This document shows positions 33,772 through 55,206 of a stretch of 64,000 nucleotides of DNA, piece after piece (position 1 is the first letter of the stretch; each line of letters starts with the position of its first letter). The notes beneath the pieces are model-generated. The model was not told the origin of the DNA and made no database searches. It saw nothing but the letters and a program-made list of their open reading frames with translations. The DNA is from Acidobacteriota bacterium (GTDB taxonomy: Bacteria; Acidobacteriota; UBA4820): assembly GCA_029559035.1 (NCBI GenBank), contig JAKQCT010000061.1, positions 1-64,000 of the forward strand, written 5' to 3'. The position numbers and the translations under genes were made by a program.

Positions 33772-34509
33772 CTATTCAGCTTGCTCTTCCTGCACCGCGG
33801 CCGGCGGAGGAGGGACCTGCCGGGGAACGTTCGTCTCGATCACGACCGGAGTCGAAGCTATCTCCTGCTGGGTTGCTGTTATCTGGTTATCCAGGGAAGA
33901 AAGCTGCGATCTCGCCGTTCCGAGCCTTGTCTCGGCGTCCCTGATCTCGCCCTCGAGGCGGTCCTTGTCGGCGGCCATCGTCGCAAACCCGTACTGGTCC
34001 CTTTTGGCTCCGAGCTCGTTCATCAGATCGTTGACCTGTGCCTGGGCCTGTGACCGTCTGTCCATCAGGTTGTTCAACTTACCCTGGAGGCCCTGCTGCT
34101 GGCCGAGGTTCATACCGCCGGAACCGGCGGCCGCTCCTTCTCCGCCGTCCTCGGCCGGGGAAGCTTCAAGGATCCTGATCTCGTCCTCGTTGGCGAGCCT
34201 CGCCCTCTTCTTTATCTCGGCGAGCTCGTCGTCCGTTATGGTCATTTTCTTCGTGGCTTTTTTGGGGGCAGGCTTGCTGACGGCGGGGATAACTTCCTCG
34301 CCACCCTCTTCCGTTTTCCTGAGGTCGACACTGTCGACGGGAAGATAGAGCATCATCCCGAACCTTTCGAAGTAGATCCTGTCTCCGTTCACCATCGGCT
34401 TGGTGTCGGATTTCACTATCCTACCGTCCTTGAGGGCGATCTTATATACATCTTCCGAAAAGACCGTCAGGGCGAAGCACACCAAAAAGAAAACTAAAAA
34501 TCGCTTCAT
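33772..34509 (-). CDS. Secreted coiled-coil protein of unknown function
   Basis: The 245-residue protein begins MKRFLVFFLVCFALTVFS, a signal peptide. A short beta-type segment follows (KIALKDGRIVKSDTKP), which resembles the start of periplasmic proteins that sense or hold a ligand; this is a weak likeness. Residues about 125-225 are predicted coiled coil, rich in Gln, Ala and Glu. The C-terminus is Pro-rich. The ATG at 34509 follows AAAGGGGG; upstream in-frame codons lie over the divergent promoter. I do not recognise the family. Confidence 0.75.
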   Translation of the reverse strand: MKRFLVFFLVCFALTVFSEDVYKIALKDGRIVKSDTKPMVNGDRIYFERFGMMLYLPVDSVDLRKTEEGGEEVIPAVSKPAPKKATKKMTITDDELAEIKKRARLANEDEIRILEASPAEDGGEGAAAGSGGMNLGQQQGLQGKLNNLMDRRSQAQAQVNDLMNELGAKRDQYGFATMAADKDRLEGEIRDAETRLGTARSQLSSLDNQITATQQEIASTPVVIETNVPRQVPPPPAAVQEEQAE

Positions 34510-34536
34510 AGCGACCCCCTTTCCAATGCCATAGGT

Positions 34537-34565
34537 ATTATGCTTCAAAAGAATCCGCAAGTCAA
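34537..34565 (-). promoter_or_regulatory. Sigma-70 promoter of the coiled-coil protein gene
   Basis: Minus strand TTGACT (34560-34565), 17-base spacer, CATAAT (34537-34542), 28 bases before the start codon. Confidence 0.65.
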
Positions 34566-34622
34566 GGTTCGGAGCCCTTGAATTTGTCCCTCTATCCTGA
34601 TAACTTTGAAGCCGGAGGTTTG

Positions 34623-35921
34623 ATGACCGAAGCGGTTCGGACAGCCAGGGAGAACGGGATCGTCGGCGCCGGCGGCGCCGCTTTTCCGACGCACGTGAAG
34701 CTTGCATCAAAAGCCGACGTGATGATCGCCAACGCTGCGGAATGCGAACCGCTTCTTTACAAGGACGAGGAGATCCTCCGCCACTTCCCGGACCTTTTCA
34801 TGAAGGGCCTGACGATTGCCGCCTCGGCAGTCGGGGCCCAGAGGATAGTGATCGGAATCAAGGACAAACACCCCGACCTCGTAAAGATGTTGAGGGACAG
34901 GCTTCCCCGAAGCGTGGAGATCGGACTTCTCCGGGACACCTACCCTTCGGGCGACGAATTCCTGCTGGTGCGCGACCTGACGGGAAGACAGATCCCCAGA
35001 GGCGGGATCCCCATCGATGTTGGGACGGTCGTCCAGAACGTGGAAACACTTTACAACCTGGGGGCGGGCGCGCCTCTCGTCGAAAAATTCGTCACCATAT
35101 CGGGAGAGGTGGACGAAGCACTGACCCTAAAAGTGCCGATAGGAATGAGCTGGCGGAACATTCTTCAGGCTCTCCGGATAGGAACGGAGGGGAAGGGTTT
35201 CATTCTTGGCGGGCCGATGATGGGGACGGTCATCCGGAACCTCGGGCTTCCCGTGACGAAAGCCGATTCGGGGCTGGTCATCCTGCCGTCGGGCCACAGC
35301 CTCCTTGTAAAAAAATCACGGACAGAAACAGCTGTGAGGAAAATAGCCTATTCCTGCGACCAGTGCATGCGCTGTTCAGACCTGTGCCCGCGAGACCTCC
35401 TCGGCCACGGCGTCAAGCCCCACAGGGCCATGATCTCCGTGACGATGGGGGCAACCGAAAAGCTTGCCTGGAACAGGTCCGCGCTCTACTGCTGCGAGTG
35501 CGCCCTCTGCACTCTGTACGCCTGTCCCGAAGACCTGGACCCGTTCAGGGTCATGGTCGAAAGCAAGAAGCAGCTTCTGCGCGCGGGGGAACGACCCCTG
35601 AAAGGACACGTGGAAAATAACCCGATGTACAAATACAGGCGCACACCGACCAAGATGCTCGTGAGGCGCCTGGGCCTGGAGGAGTTCGTCAGGCCCCACA
35701 GGTATATTGAAAAGGACCTCCGCCCCGAGGAACTCGCGATCCCGCTGTCCCAGCACAGGGGAAGCCCCGCGGTCCCCGTCGTGAGAAAAGGTCAGAAGGT
35801 CGAAGCGCGGGAGCTGATCGGCGAGATCCCCGAAGGCGCTCTGGGAAGCAGGTTGTTCTCTCCCCTGCCCGCGGTCGTAGAAAGAGTTGACAATGAAAGG
35901 ATCCTCCTGAAGGTCTTATAG
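34623..35921 (+). CDS. pduS: PduS-like flavoprotein (RnfC-related, Fe-S)
   Basis: The 432-residue protein resembles PduS, the cobalamin reductase of the 1,2-propanediol microcompartment, which is a relative of RnfC. It has the N-terminal GIVGAGGAAFPTHVK flavin-binding motif and a SLBB-type middle. Two cysteine motifs typical of 4Fe-4S clusters follow (CDQCMRCSDLCPRD and CCECALCTLYACPED). It ends with a biotinyl-like fold (VVRKGQKVEARELIGEI). The start is at ATG 34623 because GGAGG lies just upstream; a TTG 15 codons earlier is less likely. It is co-transcribed with a PduT-like shell protein. No other microcompartment genes are in the window. Confidence 0.85.
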   Translation: MTEAVRTARENGIVGAGGAAFPTHVKLASKADVMIANAAECEPLLYKDEEILRHFPDLFMKGLTIAASAVGAQRIVIGIKDKHPDLVKMLRDRLPRSVEIGLLRDTYPSGDEFLLVRDLTGRQIPRGGIPIDVGTVVQNVETLYNLGAGAPLVEKFVTISGEVDEALTLKVPIGMSWRNILQALRIGTEGKGFILGGPMMGTVIRNLGLPVTKADSGLVILPSGHSLLVKKSRTETAVRKIAYSCDQCMRCSDLCPRDLLGHGVKPHRAMISVTMGATEKLAWNRSALYCCECALCTLYACPEDLDPFRVMVESKKQLLRAGERPLKGHVENNPMYKYRRTPTKMLVRRLGLEEFVRPHRYIEKDLRPEELAIPLSQHRGSPAVPVVRKGQKVEARELIGEIPEGALGSRLFSPLPAVVERVDNERILLKVL

Positions 35922-35937
35922 AAGGGGAATGACGGAA

Positions 35938-36507
35938 ATGGATGACCGGAAGAACTCGATAGGACTGCTGGAGCTGACTTCCATCGCGAAGGGTATAGAA
36001 TGCACCGACCTGATGCTGAAAGCGGCGGATGTCGAGATCCTCATGAGCAGGACGATCTGCTCGGGGAAATACCTCGTCCTCGTGAGGGGCGACGTGGCCG
36101 CCTGCATCTCGTCGGTGAGGGCGGGCGCCGAGGCGGGAGCGGAATGCGTCGCCGACTCGGTGACTATACCCAACCTGCACGAGCAGGTATTTCCAGCGAT
36201 CAGCCAGGCTCAGGCGGTCGGGGATGTCGCCGCTCTCGGCGTCATCGAGGGGTTCAACGTCTCGACGCTTATAGAAGCGGCCGACGCCGCCGTGAAGAGC
36301 GCGGAAGTCTCCCTTGTCGAGATCCGGCTGGCGATGGCGCTGGGAGGAAAAGCCTTCGCGGTCGTTACCGGATCGGTCGCAGCCGTCAACGCCGCTGTCG
36401 AGACAGGCAGGGACGTCCTCAAGGAAAAAGGCCTGCTCGCCAACTTCTCCATAATCCCGGCCCCAAGGAAAGAACTGGTAAAAGAGCTTCTTGAAGGGAG
36501 GCTTTGA
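35938..36507 (+). CDS. pduT: PduT-like tandem-BMC microcompartment shell protein
   Basis: The 189-residue protein consists of two BMC domains (about 8-90 and 100-180). It closely follows PduT, with IGLLELTSIAKG at its start and SRTICSGKYLV around C41. That Cys corresponds to the one that binds an Fe-S cluster at the trimer pore in Salmonella PduT. The second repeat has VEIRLAMALGGKAF. The start at 35938 is better spaced from GGGG than the ATG nine bases earlier. Its stop overlaps the tolB start (TGATG). PduS docks at PduT in known systems, so this pair probably makes an electron-passing unit. Confidence 0.9.
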   Translation: MDDRKNSIGLLELTSIAKGIECTDLMLKAADVEILMSRTICSGKYLVLVRGDVAACISSVRAGAEAGAECVADSVTIPNLHEQVFPAISQAQAVGDVAALGVIEGFNVSTLIEAADAAVKSAEVSLVEIRLAMALGGKAFAVVTGSVAAVNAAVETGRDVLKEKGLLANFSIIPAPRKELVKELLEGRL

Positions 36508-37811
36508 TGAAGAAAGCCGCGTTCATGTTTTTCACCCTACTGGCTGTGATGTCTTTCGCCATTAACTCCTCCTTCGCCGGGGATCCCCCCGGCTCGAAGG
36601 AACAGCAGATAACGGGCGTCATCAAGGAAAGCGGGTTCACGCAGGCCAGGATCGCGATCCCGGCTACGAAGTTCGACTCCGCCCTCAGCGCGGAATCGGG
36701 CGAGGTCCATTCCACTCTCACCGACGACCTGGATTTCTCAGGTTTTTTCAGGATGATCGATCCTTCGCTCTACGAAGGGATCCAGATCTCCGATAAGATT
36801 GATTACGACGCCTGGACAGGGATGGACGCGGACTACCTGCTGGTCACGAGGCTGACGAAATCGGAGAGGGTGCTGACCCTGGAAGGAAGGCTTTACGACG
36901 TCAAGCGAAAGGAGATGGTTACAGGCAAACGGATCCGGGCCGCTGCCAACCAGCCGAGGCTCCTTGCCCATAATCTCTCCTCCGTCGTGTTGGATTACCT
37001 CTTCGGGGCGGGCAGGTTCCCTACGAGCCAGGTCCTCTTCGCGGCCCAGCTGGGCGAAACCCAGGACATATTCCTCTGCGATTACGACGGCAAGAATCTT
37101 GTCAGGCTTACCGCCATGGGTATCCTGAACGTCACGCCCGACATCAGCCCGAAGGGTGACAAGATCGTCTTCACCTCGATACTCAAGGACAGGCAGGAGC
37201 TGTTCTTTCTCGACAGGGCAGGGAAAAGGACCAAGCTGTACGGCGAAGGAGAAGGACTGAACTCCAGCCCCAGGTTCTCCCCGGACGGGAGCACGATAGC
37301 GTTCTGCTCTTCGAAGTCCGGCAACCCCGACATCTGGACGGTGAACGCCAACGGGACGAACCTCACCAGGGTCTCCTTCTCTTACGGCATCGATACCGCT
37401 CCCTGCTGGTCCCCGGACGGGACCAAGATAGCGTTCACTTCTGACAGGTCGGGATCACCGCAGATCTACGTCATGGACCGGGACGGGACGAACGTCAAAC
37501 GGATCACCCCGCAGGATTCGAAGCGGTGCGACCAGCCCCACTGGTCCCCGAGGGGAGATAAGATCGTTTACACGACCATGGTCGACGGGAAATTCAACAT
37601 AGCCTCGATAGACCTGTCGACCGGCGAGGTCACGCATTTGACCCGCGGTGAAGGAGACAACGAATCCGCGACATGGTCTCCCGACGGGAGATACATCACA
37701 TTTTCGTCCAACAGGCTCGGTACCTTCCAGATCTTCATCATGAGGGCCGACGGAAGCGGTGTCAGGAGGATCTCAAACCAGCCAGATTGCTCTTCTCCAT
37801 GCTGGTTCTGA
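36507..37811 (+). CDS. tolB: Tol-Pal system protein TolB
   Basis: TolB is a periplasmic beta-propeller that works with Pal to keep the outer membrane joined to the cell. The 434-residue protein has a signal peptide (1-25), an N-terminal domain (about 30-180), and six propeller blades with repeated SPDG-type motifs (FSPDGSTIAFCSSKSG, WSPDGTKIAFTSDRSG, WSPDGRYITFSSNRLG). The start is taken at the ATG overlapping the pduT stop. No pal, tolQ or tolA is nearby, which is unusual. This gene is the main evidence in the window for an outer membrane. Confidence 0.93.
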   Translation: MKKAAFMFFTLLAVMSFAINSSFAGDPPGSKEQQITGVIKESGFTQARIAIPATKFDSALSAESGEVHSTLTDDLDFSGFFRMIDPSLYEGIQISDKIDYDAWTGMDADYLLVTRLTKSERVLTLEGRLYDVKRKEMVTGKRIRAAANQPRLLAHNLSSVVLDYLFGAGRFPTSQVLFAAQLGETQDIFLCDYDGKNLVRLTAMGILNVTPDISPKGDKIVFTSILKDRQELFFLDRAGKRTKLYGEGEGLNSSPRFSPDGSTIAFCSSKSGNPDIWTVNANGTNLTRVSFSYGIDTAPCWSPDGTKIAFTSDRSGSPQIYVMDRDGTNVKRITPQDSKRCDQPHWSPRGDKIVYTTMVDGKFNIASIDLSTGEVTHLTRGEGDNESATWSPDGRYITFSSNRLGTFQIFIMRADGSGVRRISNQPDCSSPCWF

Positions 37812-37814
37812 TAG

Positions 37815-39518
37815 ATGCTTGAAAGGCTTTGTATCAGGAATTTCGCCCTTGTCAGCTCTCTGGAGCTCGAATTCCGGAAGGGGCTCGTCCTGCTGACGGG
37901 CGAGACCGGAGCGGGAAAGTCCCTCCTGATCGGAGCACTTTCATCCCTTCTCGGTTCCAGGATGGACAGCGACCTTGTTGTGCTGAGGGACGAAGACGCG
38001 GTTATCGAGGGAACTTTCACCGGCCTGGACCCGTCGTTCTCCGGAGCTCTAGCCTCGATCGGTATTTCTGTATCCGATTCGGTAACTGTCCGGAGAAAGA
38101 TCGAGAAGAAGGGAAGAAGCAGCGCTTTCATCAACGGATGCGCCGTTTCCGCCGGCCAGCTTAAAGAGTTCACTCCCCGGCTGCTTGAGATCAACGGACA
38201 GCACCAGAGCGTAAGGCTTCTGGACGAATCGTCCCACGCCGCGATCCTGGATTCAGTGGATACCGTCAGGCCAGCCGCGCAAAAGGTCCGCGAGCTGAGC
38301 GAAAAGACCTCGAAGCTGAACGACAGGTACCGTCTGGTCTTGGGAAAGACCGGAGAGATCGAGCGGCGCACAGGAACGCTCAGGGAAGAGATCGACGAGA
38401 TCTCGAGGGTGGCACCCGCAGAGAACGAGGACGAGGAGCTCGGCGGAAAGAGAAAGGTCATGCAGAACCTTTCCACCGTAATGGAGAACCTGTCTTCCAT
38501 AAAGGCTCTCCTTGGCGGAGAAGAGACCTCCGTCCTGTCGCTTCTGAAAGAGGCTTCGAAAAAAGCCGGGGAACTGTCGGAATACAGGCCGAAGTGGTCA
38601 GCCCTCGCGAGGGAGCTGGAAGCAACAAGAAGCCCGCTCGCCGAGATCAGGGACGAGGCGGAAAGAGAAGCCTCCGACATGAGCTTCGAACCTGGGGAGC
38701 TGGAGAGAATCGAGGAACGGCTCTACCGGCTCGAAAAGCTGAAGCGCAAGTACGGCCCCCTTCTCAGAGACGTTATATCGAGGCTCGAAAGCGCCCGCGC
38801 CGAGATGGAGGAACTGAGCTCCCTGCCTCTCGACCGCGAGGCCGTCCGAAAAGAGCTGGACGAGTCTTTCAGGGAATATCTCGAAGCCGCGGCGGACCTC
38901 AGCCAAAAGAGGAGGGAATCCGCACCGCTCCTCGGGGGAAGGATCGAGTCGGCCCTCAGGCCCCTCGCTCTCGAAAAGGCGAGGTTCCAGGTCGGATTCA
39001 GCGAAAGGAAGGTAGCAGAGCCCTCCGACGTTTCGGAAAAAGGGTTGGAGGAGGCATACTTCCTTTTTTCCGCCAATGAGGGGGAAGCGCTCAAACCGCT
39101 TTCGAAAATTGCTTCGGGCGGGGAAATGTCCAGGACCGTACTGGCGATCCTCACTTCAGCGGGAGCGGGAGGAGGCCCGGACACGGTCGTCTTCGACGAA
39201 ATAGATTCCGGGATAGGCGGAAGGCCAGCCGAAAAAGTGGGAAGGTACCTCTCCCGGCTCGCCCGAGGAAAACAGATCATCTGCGTCACCCACCTCGCCC
39301 AGATAGCCGCCTTCGCCGACCAGCACATGGTTGTAGAAAAACTCACCGCATGCGGAAGGACGAATGTAGCCGCGCGCGTGCTTCAGGGAAGAGACGCACG
39401 GGAGGAAGAACTTGCGCGAATGATCGCAGGCGAGAAGGTCACCGAAACCGCCAAGGCCCACGCCCGGGAGCTTCTGAAAGCCTCCGGGGAAAAAGTACCC
39501 CCGCTTTTCCGCCCCTAG
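37815..39518 (+). CDS. recN: DNA repair protein RecN
   Basis: RecN is an SMC-like ATPase for double-strand break repair. The 567-residue protein has a Walker A motif (LLTGETGAGKSLL), QHQSVRLLD, central coiled-coil arms (about 150-370), the signature SGGEMSRTVLA, and Walker B TVVFDEIDSGIGG. A domain near the end has QIICVTHLAQIA. It lies 3 bases after tolB. No LexA-type box was recognised near it, and its position inside the pdu-tol operon argues against simple SOS control. Confidence 0.95.
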   Translation: MLERLCIRNFALVSSLELEFRKGLVLLTGETGAGKSLLIGALSSLLGSRMDSDLVVLRDEDAVIEGTFTGLDPSFSGALASIGISVSDSVTVRRKIEKKGRSSAFINGCAVSAGQLKEFTPRLLEINGQHQSVRLLDESSHAAILDSVDTVRPAAQKVRELSEKTSKLNDRYRLVLGKTGEIERRTGTLREEIDEISRVAPAENEDEELGGKRKVMQNLSTVMENLSSIKALLGGEETSVLSLLKEASKKAGELSEYRPKWSALARELEATRSPLAEIRDEAEREASDMSFEPGELERIEERLYRLEKLKRKYGPLLRDVISRLESARAEMEELSSLPLDREAVRKELDESFREYLEAAADLSQKRRESAPLLGGRIESALRPLALEKARFQVGFSERKVAEPSDVSEKGLEEAYFLFSANEGEALKPLSKIASGGEMSRTVLAILTSAGAGGGPDTVVFDEIDSGIGGRPAEKVGRYLSRLARGKQIICVTHLAQIAAFADQHMVVEKLTACGRTNVAARVLQGRDAREEELARMIAGEKVTETAKAHARELLKASGEKVPPLFRP

Positions 39519-48787: not shown

Positions 48788-50731
48788 TCAGGGAAGCTCG
48801 AGCAGATCCCTCAGTTTAAGGGCGTGAGGCGAATTCATCTTCTCCAGGACGGAGAGCCTTCCTCTTGCCTTGTCCGGTTCTCCGGTTTTCAACTCCAGCA
48901 AGGCCAGGTTGAACGTCTCCACGTCAAGAGAAGGGTCGAGGAGGATCGCTCTTCCGTAACACCGTTTCGCCTCCTCGTACTTGCCCTGCATTTCAAGCGC
49001 GTAAGCCAGGTAGCTCCAGGCCTCCGCCATGCCAGGCTCGATCTCCGAGGCTTTCCGGAAATAGCCCTCCGCCTCCCCCCACGACTCCGCGGTCATCGCC
49101 TGCTTCCCTTTTTTAACGGCTTCCTGGATGATCATGATCTTCGCGGCCTTCATGTTCTCCGTTAATTTTTTCGCTTCGTGGCCGTGTTCCCGCGCGAGCC
49201 TGAAACATTGCAGAGACTCCTCGTATCTCCTGAGATTGAACAGGACGCTCGCCTTGTTGTAATACGCGCCCGGATGCCGGGGATGCTCGGCGAGCTCGGC
49301 ATCGCAAAGCTCAAGAGCCTTGCGATAGAGCGAGCCGGCCCGGTCAGGGTCTCCCTTGTCGGCATGCACGTTCCCCAGCTCGACATAAGCCATCACGGCC
49401 CCGGGCGACCTTTTTATGATGTTTTCGAAAAGCGTCCCGTCGTCCCTCCATGTCGCGATCTGAACCCTGGAAGCTGAAAAGAAGATGGCGGCAACGACGA
49501 GGAACGACGCCCCGACCATAACCTTTCTCCAGGTTTTTCCCGCGGTCAGCTTTTCCCAGGGTATTCCGATGACGGCCATCGCGAAAAGGCCCCAGTATGG
49601 AAAGTACACATACCTGTCCGCGTAAGCCTGCATTCCCACCTGGAGAAGGCCGAGCACCGGTAGAAGAGAAACCAGAAAAAACAACCAGCCCGCCATCAGG
49701 ACCGGCGAGCTTTTCCTCAGCTTGAAGAAAAGGAACGTGGCGGCAAAAAGGCCGGCCGCGATAAGAAGCGGGAGAAGGGGGTGGTAGTTGCCCTCGTGAT
49801 GGGTGTACAACGCGCAGAGGTTGAAGGGAAGGACCAGCTTGTAGAGGTAGAAACCCAAACCGAGGAACGCCTCCCCGACCCTGTGGCCGAAAGCGACATG
49901 CGAAAGGGCGGCCATCGTCCCGGTATCCCTCTGTGCCAGGATGGTCAATATTCCCGACGCGAGCGAGATCAGAAAAAGAGGGATCTTCTGAACGACGAGC
50001 GAACCCAATGTCCGCAATGTGCTCCTGAGGTCGCCCGGGGCACCGAACCTCCCGAGGGGCCAGAAGTCCGCGATAAGGAGAAGCACCGGGAACATCACGA
50101 TGCTCGACTTGCTCATCAGGCCCATGACGAAAAACGAATACAGCAGCAGGCGGTACAAAAGGGTTTTTCTTTTTTCAGCGCCCGGACGATGAACGATCAG
50201 GTAACAGATCAGCGCAAGGACAAGGAACAGTGCCGACAGCAAGTTTTTCCTCTCCGCGAGCCAGGCGACCGATTCGACGTTCATGGGGTGCAACGCGAAG
50301 AACGCGGAGACAGCAGAGCTTTTCAAGGGACTGCCGGTCACCAGCATGATCAGGAAAAAAAGCAGGACCGCGTTTACGGAATGCAGAACCACGCTGGTGA
50401 GATAATGCCCCCTCGGATCTGTTCCGAAGAACTGGACATCCGTCATGTGGGACAGCCACGTTAGCGGATAATAAAAGCCGAAATAGGTGGTGGTGAAGGC
50501 CCACTTCACGTTTCCGGCGTTGAGCCCTTCCAGGACCCTCTCGTTCGACGTTATGTAAACCGGGTCATCCCAACTGTGAAAAGTGTGGTTCAGGACGGGA
50601 AGATAGGTTATCACTGCAAGGAAGAAAATGACCACCGCCAGCCATCGTCCGCCGGGAGCGGCCGTCTGAACGGCAGCGTTCGCCGCGGCATCGACCGGCT
50701 TTTTCTCTCTCTTTTTTGCGGCTTTGACCAT
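48788..50731 (-). CDS. TMTC-like membrane glycosyltransferase with TPR repeats (paralog)
   Basis: This 647-residue paralog of the downstream gene has the same GT-C-like membrane half: D55-D56 in FHSWDDPVYITSNER, then HPMNVESVAWLAERKN. It has fewer TPR repeats (about four, residues 465-640). The TPR segment varies most between the two, which fits a role in picking the acceptor. The gene is first in the pair; the region before it (50732-50949) contains no gene or clear promoter that I can see. Confidence 0.8.
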   Translation of the reverse strand: MVKAAKKREKKPVDAAANAAVQTAAPGGRWLAVVIFFLAVITYLPVLNHTFHSWDDPVYITSNERVLEGLNAGNVKWAFTTTYFGFYYPLTWLSHMTDVQFFGTDPRGHYLTSVVLHSVNAVLLFFLIMLVTGSPLKSSAVSAFFALHPMNVESVAWLAERKNLLSALFLVLALICYLIVHRPGAEKRKTLLYRLLLYSFFVMGLMSKSSIVMFPVLLLIADFWPLGRFGAPGDLRSTLRTLGSLVVQKIPLFLISLASGILTILAQRDTGTMAALSHVAFGHRVGEAFLGLGFYLYKLVLPFNLCALYTHHEGNYHPLLPLLIAAGLFAATFLFFKLRKSSPVLMAGWLFFLVSLLPVLGLLQVGMQAYADRYVYFPYWGLFAMAVIGIPWEKLTAGKTWRKVMVGASFLVVAAIFFSASRVQIATWRDDGTLFENIIKRSPGAVMAYVELGNVHADKGDPDRAGSLYRKALELCDAELAEHPRHPGAYYNKASVLFNLRRYEESLQCFRLAREHGHEAKKLTENMKAAKIMIIQEAVKKGKQAMTAESWGEAEGYFRKASEIEPGMAEAWSYLAYALEMQGKYEEAKRCYGRAILLDPSLDVETFNLALLELKTGEPDKARGRLSVLEKMNSPHALKLRDLLELP

Positions 50732-50949
50732 CGACCTTTCTGCACGCCTTTCAAATCCGAATTATTCTTCATGTCCCGTCGCAAGTCAATGGTCTTGCGT
50801 CTCCGCAACGGATGCGATCCCGGGAGGCGGCGGGGAATGCCGGGCCGAGCGCCGGTAAGGGCAGATATCCCCTACAGCGGCGCTCTCGAGCGGCGCAGCG
50901 GGGGGACGGCCGGGGGTTCAGGCGAGTTGCCGTCTCGCGGGCACACCGA

Positions 50950-50979
50950 TTGCAGTCGGAGAGATTTTTCTTTTATACT
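50950..50979 (+). promoter_or_regulatory. Promoter of the meaB operon
   Basis: TTGCAG (50950-50955), 18-base spacer, TATACT (50974-50979). Transcription would start close to the meaB ribosome binding site, giving a very short leader. Confidence 0.6.
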
Positions 50980-50998
50980 GATGTTTGGGAGAATCTTC

Positions 50999-51946
50999 AT
51001 GAACCCGCCTTTCCTTTGCCGCAGCGACGCCAGGAGAATAGCAAGAGTTCTTTCGCAGGTGGAGAACAGGTCTCCCGGGTGCGCCTCGCTCATGAAGGAG
51101 TGCTGGAAACAGGCGGGCGGGGCGTGGATCATCGGGATAACGGGGCCTCCCGGGGCGGGCAAATCGACGCTGACCTCCTCGCTGATAAGGAAATTCAGGG
51201 AGGAGGGAAAAACGGTGGGTGTGCTCGCCGTCGACCCGTCTTCCTCCTTCTCGGGCGGGGCGCTCCTGGGCGACAGGATAAGGATGATGGAGATGAGCCT
51301 GGATGAGGGCGTGTTCATCAGGTCCGCCGCCACGAGAGGCTCGATGGGCGGGCTCTCCGCCGCCGCGGGGGACATGATAACCGTTATGGACGCGGCGGGC
51401 TTCGACGTCATACTGGTCGAGACCGTCGGCGTGGGGCAGGACGAGATAGACATCATAAGGGAAGCCGATTCGGTCATCCTCGTGCTGGTGCCCGGCCTGG
51501 GCGACGACATCCAGGCGCTGAAAGCGGGGATAATGGAGATCGCCGACATCTTCGTCGTCAACAAGGCCGACAAGGAGGGCGCGGAAAAGCTCGAAAGGGA
51601 GATAGTGTACATCCTCGGGCTCTCCCCCGTCAGGAAGGAATGGACGCCTCCGGTCGTGAAGACCGTCGCCTCGAAGAACGACGGGATGGGAGCCCTGGCG
51701 GAAAAGCTCGCTGAGCACCACAGGTTCCTCAGGTACACGGCGTTCCTGAGGGAAAAGAGGAAACAGCGGGGAGCGGAAAAGCTCAGGAAGCTCCTGCTCG
51801 AAGGAATAGAGAAGAAGCTGAAGAAAGGCCCGCTGGCCGTCGGCGAGGAAGAAAAGCTGAAGGAGGATTTCGTCGGGAAGCGGAGCGATCCTTACTCCGC
51901 CGCCGAGGAGATCCTCGACGATCTTTCATGGGAGGGAACGGAATGA
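50999..51946 (+). CDS. meaB: Methylmalonyl-CoA mutase-associated GTPase MeaB
   Basis: MeaB is a G3E-family GTPase that guards and reloads the adenosylcobalamin of methylmalonyl-CoA mutase. The 315-residue protein has GPPGAGKST, DPSSSFSGGALLGDR, ETVGVGQDEID and NKAD. The ATG at 50999 follows GGGAGA and fits the promoter position; the much longer frame upstream would extend past the promoter. Its stop overlaps the next start (ATGA). The mutase itself is not in the window. Confidence 0.93.
   Translation: MNPPFLCRSDARRIARVLSQVENRSPGCASLMKECWKQAGGAWIIGITGPPGAGKSTLTSSLIRKFREEGKTVGVLAVDPSSSFSGGALLGDRIRMMEMSLDEGVFIRSAATRGSMGGLSAAAGDMITVMDAAGFDVILVETVGVGQDEIDIIREADSVILVLVPGLGDDIQALKAGIMEIADIFVVNKADKEGAEKLEREIVYILGLSPVRKEWTPPVVKTVASKNDGMGALAEKLAEHHRFLRYTAFLREKRKQRGAEKLRKLLLEGIEKKLKKGPLAVGEEEKLKEDFVGKRSDPYSAAEEILDDLSWEGTE

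Positions 51947-52959: not shown

Positions 52960-55206
<2,247 letters not shown>

Follow-up and report, generated by a model that had tools for sequence, protein, structure and literature searches.

A PduS/PduT-like gene pair packed with tolB and recN is a probable satellite locus of a fragmented, ACI-like metabolosome in an acidobacterial genome

The window, a 64,000-nucleotide stretch of DNA from a MAG of 2.86 Mb (95% complete), carries adjacent PduS-like and PduT-like genes, and domain matches confirmed both assignments of the first-pass annotation. The pduS-like gene (34623..35921, + strand) opens with an ATG at 34623, immediately preceded by GGAGG, and encodes 432 residues. Its product matches Complex1_51K, the FMN/NADH-binding domain type (1.5e-42), followed by the 4Fe-4S dicluster domain Fer4_17 (4.5e-12) and a C-terminal barrel-sandwich domain, RnfC_N (2.3e-8). 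Both [4Fe-4S] tetracysteine motifs are present, CxxCxxCxxxC as C245/248/251/255 and CxxCxxCxxxxC as C290/293/296/301, with the spacing published for Citrobacter freundii PduS (PMC2982820). All eight of these cysteines are kept in 83-85 of 86 homologues. A Foldseek search with the AF2 model (pLDDT 91) returned RnfC, the NADH:ferredoxin oxidoreductase subunit, as the best match (E 2e-23). RnfC of the Rnf complex is thus the closest solved fold and has the FMN and dicluster domains in common with PduS, but its barrel-sandwich domain is N-terminal whereas that of the window protein is C-terminal, and for this reason we set the two apart. The score against TIGR01945 is 228 bits, below the cut-off of 245.95. 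A PduS would also be expected to act as an NADH-dependent flavin/corrin reductase and to bind PduT.

The pduT-like gene (35929..36507, + strand) encodes a 192-residue BMC-T shell protein with two tandem BMC domains (PF00936, 1.3e-43). Its nearest solved structures are the PduT-type tandem BMC proteins 3nwg, 3pac and 3n79 (E 4e-46 to 5e-43). The Fe-S-binding cysteine noted at first reading is present, but it is residue 44 of the open reading frame (T-I-C-S-G-K-Y) rather than C41. This residue aligns to the pore cysteine of PduT, a site occupied by serine in 3n79, and is a cysteine in 90 of 94 homologues. Because the protein scores 135.7 bits against the NCBIfam equivalog TIGR02526 (eut_PduT) and does not reach the cut-off of 250.3, we call the gene PduT-like rather than a curated equivalog.

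Two conserved neighbors without a part in a microcompartment follow on the same strand: tolB (36507..37811), for the Tol-Pal beta-propeller protein, and recN (37815..39518), for a DNA repair ATPase, which is the last gene of the packed block. RecN scores above the TIGR00634 cut-off, and TolB falls slightly short of that of TIGR02800 (331 against 343 bits). The pduT stop and the tolB ATG overlap in TGATG, and only 4 nt separate tolB from recN; given this packing, pduS, pduT, tolB and recN look like the single operon that had been proposed, with the tight spacing seen directly and shared transcription suggested by it. The intergenic stretch at 34507..34622, between pduS and a divergent signal-peptide gene (start about 34506, - strand), is likely the promoter region of the block, and a scan 5' of pduS gave no + strand sigma-70-like match there.

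Scanning the open reading frames, together with whole-genome BMC, EutN and PduL searches, uncovered no further BMC gene in the window. The earlier statement that other microcompartment genes are missing nearby holds; the PTA_PTB domain encoded at 52960-55206 (+), which is part of a fusion with a malic enzyme (MaeB type), is not PduL. MeaB is also real (50576-51946, +; PF03308, 4e-91), but its position 14 kb away is a weak link between pduST and B12 chemistry, since MeaB serves methylmalonyl-CoA mutase and the diol dehydratase large subunit had no match in a search whose control was silent too. The MeaB GTPase has about 150 additional N-terminal residues without a Pfam match.

Further BMC genes do lie elsewhere in the genome, as a search of the MAG had been expected to decide. 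The BMC-domain search returned four matches, two from PduT (one per half) and a single BMC-H from each of contigs C59 and C49, and the BMC-P search returned three, all on C59. The shell set of the genome consists of two BMC-H, one BMC-T and three BMC-P genes at three separate places, which is enough for one shell. The pair is consequently no orphan, because the remaining shell and enzyme genes are found on other contigs of the same MAG. A full BMC operon elsewhere with its own pduT had been named as the finding that would make the window gene a displaced second copy. The search found no other BMC-T in the genome, and we rejected that reading because the window gene is the only one.

The main locus on C59 combines a BMC-H gene, the BMC-P triplet, a 146-residue protein with a cysteine motif and a D-2-hydroxyacid dehydrogenase (PF00389/PF02826; L088:12016-13002). 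The small protein (L088:11579-12016) adjoins the BMC-P triplet and, like its relatives at L123-L130, has no family match. Its N-terminal helix is EP-like, its C-terminal cysteine motif, PC..EP.K.C..(C).GRC.TLGF, is conserved, and it is possibly a compartment protein that binds a metal or an Fe-S cluster. We considered an FBA-type aldolase (PF01116) encoded divergently from the BMC-H gene on C59 as the signature enzyme but rejected it, since its position there is not conserved in relatives.

On C49, the second BMC-H gene is accompanied by a CoA-acylating aldehyde dehydrogenase, nearest to the acylating acetaldehyde dehydrogenase model TIGR02518 (566 bits, cut-off 620). This enzyme (L089:1182-2774) and its relatives (L131-L140) end in a conserved tail, DFVSExDVRxAxxxxRxIxIHxKTIITPSAxELGExxxIFE, beyond a variable linker, a layout that would be typical of encapsulation peptides. 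Searching the genome with the tail for cargo that carries a similar one returned only the aldehyde dehydrogenase itself. A TPR gene paired with a PF00596 class II aldolase lies on a further contig, C66 (L142:4657-5876), detached from the shell locus.

Much of this organization is shared across the order. BMC genes occur in 13 of 13 genomes, PduT in 11 (the window's own included) and the BMC-P triplet in nine, and the three-way split is common to most of them. Whether relatives keep the gene order pduS-pduT-tolB-recN had been put forward as a check, and it is kept in all nine informative ones, meaning those whose contig extends far enough; in one of these, a contig end cuts away pduS. Since the pduST sequences of the order form one clade, the arrangement most likely arose a single time and was inherited. 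Genome G004 argues against a mere assembly break, as its three loci are found on different contigs, which are 158, 119 and 82 kb long. The option of a scattered microcompartment, one of two offered at first, is thus the one that fits, with BMC-H, BMC-T and BMC-P genes in three places here and a similar set in most genomes of the order.

Most gaps in the shell set fall in the incomplete genomes G003 (440 contigs, 88% complete), G011 and G012 (510 contigs, 67% complete). PduT is present and BMC-P was not found in G003, G007 and G012; in G005, shell genes are present and PduT was not found. G007 is 98% complete and has both pduST and the locus with BMC-H and aldehyde dehydrogenase, and our searches recovered neither BMC-P nor a second BMC-H from it, which points either to a shell that lacks pentamers or to an assembly gap. 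PduL was not found in any of the 13 genomes. Six genomes of a sister family (L125-L130) encode, in the main locus and immediately next to BMC-H, a PF00596 class II aldolase whose C-terminal extension ends in an amphipathic-looking helix. The pair of TPR gene and aldolase stands at the shell locus in that family and apart from it in the window's genome, where the C66 aldolase lacks the C-terminal extension but still adjoins the same TPR gene.

Outside the order, the flanks of 72 loci with a close PduT contained no other BMC-H, BMC-P or matching aldehyde dehydrogenase; where genes were mapped, these flanks have a median of 10 kb per side, and they reach at least 5 kb on both sides in 35 loci. 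BMC-P genes, usually three, are nevertheless present in 39 of 40 tested genomes from outside the order that have a lone pduST. Within the phylum but outside the order, BMC-P occurs in 12 of 12 PduT-positive genomes versus 13 of 35 PduT-negative ones (Fisher p 1e-4, not corrected for relatedness). From these two comparisons we conclude that lone pduST is a common satellite form that accompanies a shell. Sixteen loci, among them L018, L019, L053, L060, L061, L064 and L066, have a conserved gene for a product of about 412 residues near the lone pduST, mostly upstream of it, and many of these loci come from Ignavibacteria. Two PduT-like frames from two genomes of one genus (G040:C110:32261-32806 and G052:C21:89256-89801) each contain one in-frame TGA.

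We consider it very likely that pduST in the window is the satellite of a single metabolosome, the genes of which are distributed over three or more genomic places. The fuller explanation that we favor, and consider probable, is that this metabolosome is ACI-like and fragmented and that PduS and PduT form its electron outlet across the shell. The class II aldolase on C66 would probably supply an aldehyde, which the aldehyde dehydrogenase would turn into acyl-CoA and NADH inside the shell. PduT would probably trimerize as part of the shell and hold a [4Fe-4S] cluster in its pore, and PduS would probably dock on it at the inner face, take electrons from NADH via FMN and its two [4Fe-4S] clusters, and pass them via PduT to the cytosol. 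If electrons leave through PduT in this way, NAD+ would be regenerated inside, although it could also be recycled there by another enzyme, for example the hydroxyacid dehydrogenase of the main locus. Published work shows that PduS oxidizes NADH and binds PduT, and outward electron passage has already been proposed for the two proteins (PMC2982820, PMC6325248). The reported potentials are about -150 mV for the PduS flavin and +99 mV for the PduT cluster (PMC2982820, PMC6325248), so flow from NADH through PduS to PduT is downhill. For the window's system, we put the outward direction, from lumen to cytosol, at about an even chance.

The same satellite could instead carry electrons inward, delivering reducing power to the lumen for aldehyde or acyl-CoA reduction or for the reactivation of an enzyme. 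In favor of this reading, the system has a second NAD enzyme, the hydroxyacid dehydrogenase encoded next to the BMC-P triplet. We regard inward flow as unlikely, because the published potentials favor transfer from NADH to PduT and because the large subunit of diol dehydratase (PF02286) had no match in the order, a search whose control was silent too.

It is less likely still that PduS acts as a general cobalamin reductase for methylmalonyl-CoA mutase, with PduT as a mere anchor. The presence of meaB 14 kb away would suit such a role, as would the reduction and binding of cobalamin by PduS from the PDU system (PMC2982820), but across the phylum pduST follows BMC-P (the 12 of 12 versus 13 of 35 genomes above), and the order keeps tolB and recN next to it rather than B12 genes. 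Slightly less again can be said for a free two-protein redox device outside any shell, the other option offered at first, which we consider very improbable. The 72 lone loci and the three genomes of the order with PduT and no BMC-P found (G003, G007 and G012) would be expected of such a device, but 39 of 40 genomes with a lone pduST encode BMC-P elsewhere, the PduT-positive genomes of the phylum outside the order all do so, and the assemblies of two of the three, G003 and G012, are in many pieces or incomplete. Least credible of all is the reading of pduST as a decaying remnant of a former compartment, for although fragmented loci could mark a stage of loss and the aldolase of the window's family is tail-less and elsewhere, the cluster cysteines of PduS and Cys44 of PduT are conserved at the frequencies given above, and a complete shell set with intact frames persists in two families.

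If pduST belongs to a fragmented metabolosome, then PduS and PduT, commonly interpreted as accessory to B12 in the propanediol compartment, are a conserved part of a microcompartment class to which no function is assigned and in whose loci we saw no B12 enzyme. The aldolase of the sister family points to the breakdown of sugar phosphates as the chemistry of the compartment. One shell with one BMC-T and split genes also offers a clean natural test case for the carriage of electrons across a shell. A broader proposal, which we hold only tentatively and think rather doubtful, is that PduS and PduT are a free-standing electron-outlet module that relocates freely among many fragmented metabolosomes with BMC-P triplets, that in this order the module became locked to tolB-recN, and that the aldolase of the window's family was expelled from the compartment. 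Were this so, the redox port would be expressed with housekeeping genes, and the enzymes and other shell genes would be controlled separately.

How does this system compare with those already catalogued? The pair resembles PduS and PduT of propanediol (PDU) and glycyl radical (GRM) loci in the adjacency of the genes, the domain order, the tetracysteine spacing and the pore cysteine. It differs in lying outside a BMC operon, in an order in which PduL was not found; a PF02286 diol dehydratase match was likewise not obtained in the order, in a search whose control was also silent. Satellite loci, shells with fragmented genes and the ACI type have all been described before (PMC4207490, PMC8217296), and pduST is a satellite locus by the published definition, as a shell gene distal from the locus with BMC-H and BMC-P (Axen 2014, Sutter 2021). 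Neither PduS nor RnfC is mentioned in the main text of the 2021 catalogue (PMC8217296), so a pduST satellite that stands alone, and its link to tolB-recN, may not have been reported so far, and we found nothing specific in the literature on Aminicenantes microcompartments. The FRAG types, reported from Ignavibacteriae, Gemmatimonadetes, Planctomycetes and candidate phyla, are defined by models of shell-protein composition (Sutter et al. 2021); judged by arrangement rather than by those models, our system is like them in having shell genes at several genomic places and a BMC-P triplet.

The closest likeness is to the ACI type, which has been reported mainly from Acidobacteria subdivisions 4 and 6 and comprises a PF00596 aldolase with a C-terminal encapsulation peptide, a hydroxyacid dehydrogenase, a BMC-P triplet, BMC-H and a satellite aldehyde dehydrogenase (Sutter et al. 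2021, PMC8217296). Of these, the window's genome has the BMC-P triplet, BMC-H and hydroxyacid dehydrogenase in its main locus and the aldehyde dehydrogenase at a satellite (C49), and in the sister family BMC-H is joined by a class II aldolase (PF00596) that bears a C-terminal extension. In contrast to ACI, pduST here occupies yet another place of its own, tightly packed with tolB and recN, and the aldolase is absent from the main locus. Because that aldolase lies on C66 and lacks the extension, we file the window's system as ACI-like rather than as ACI.
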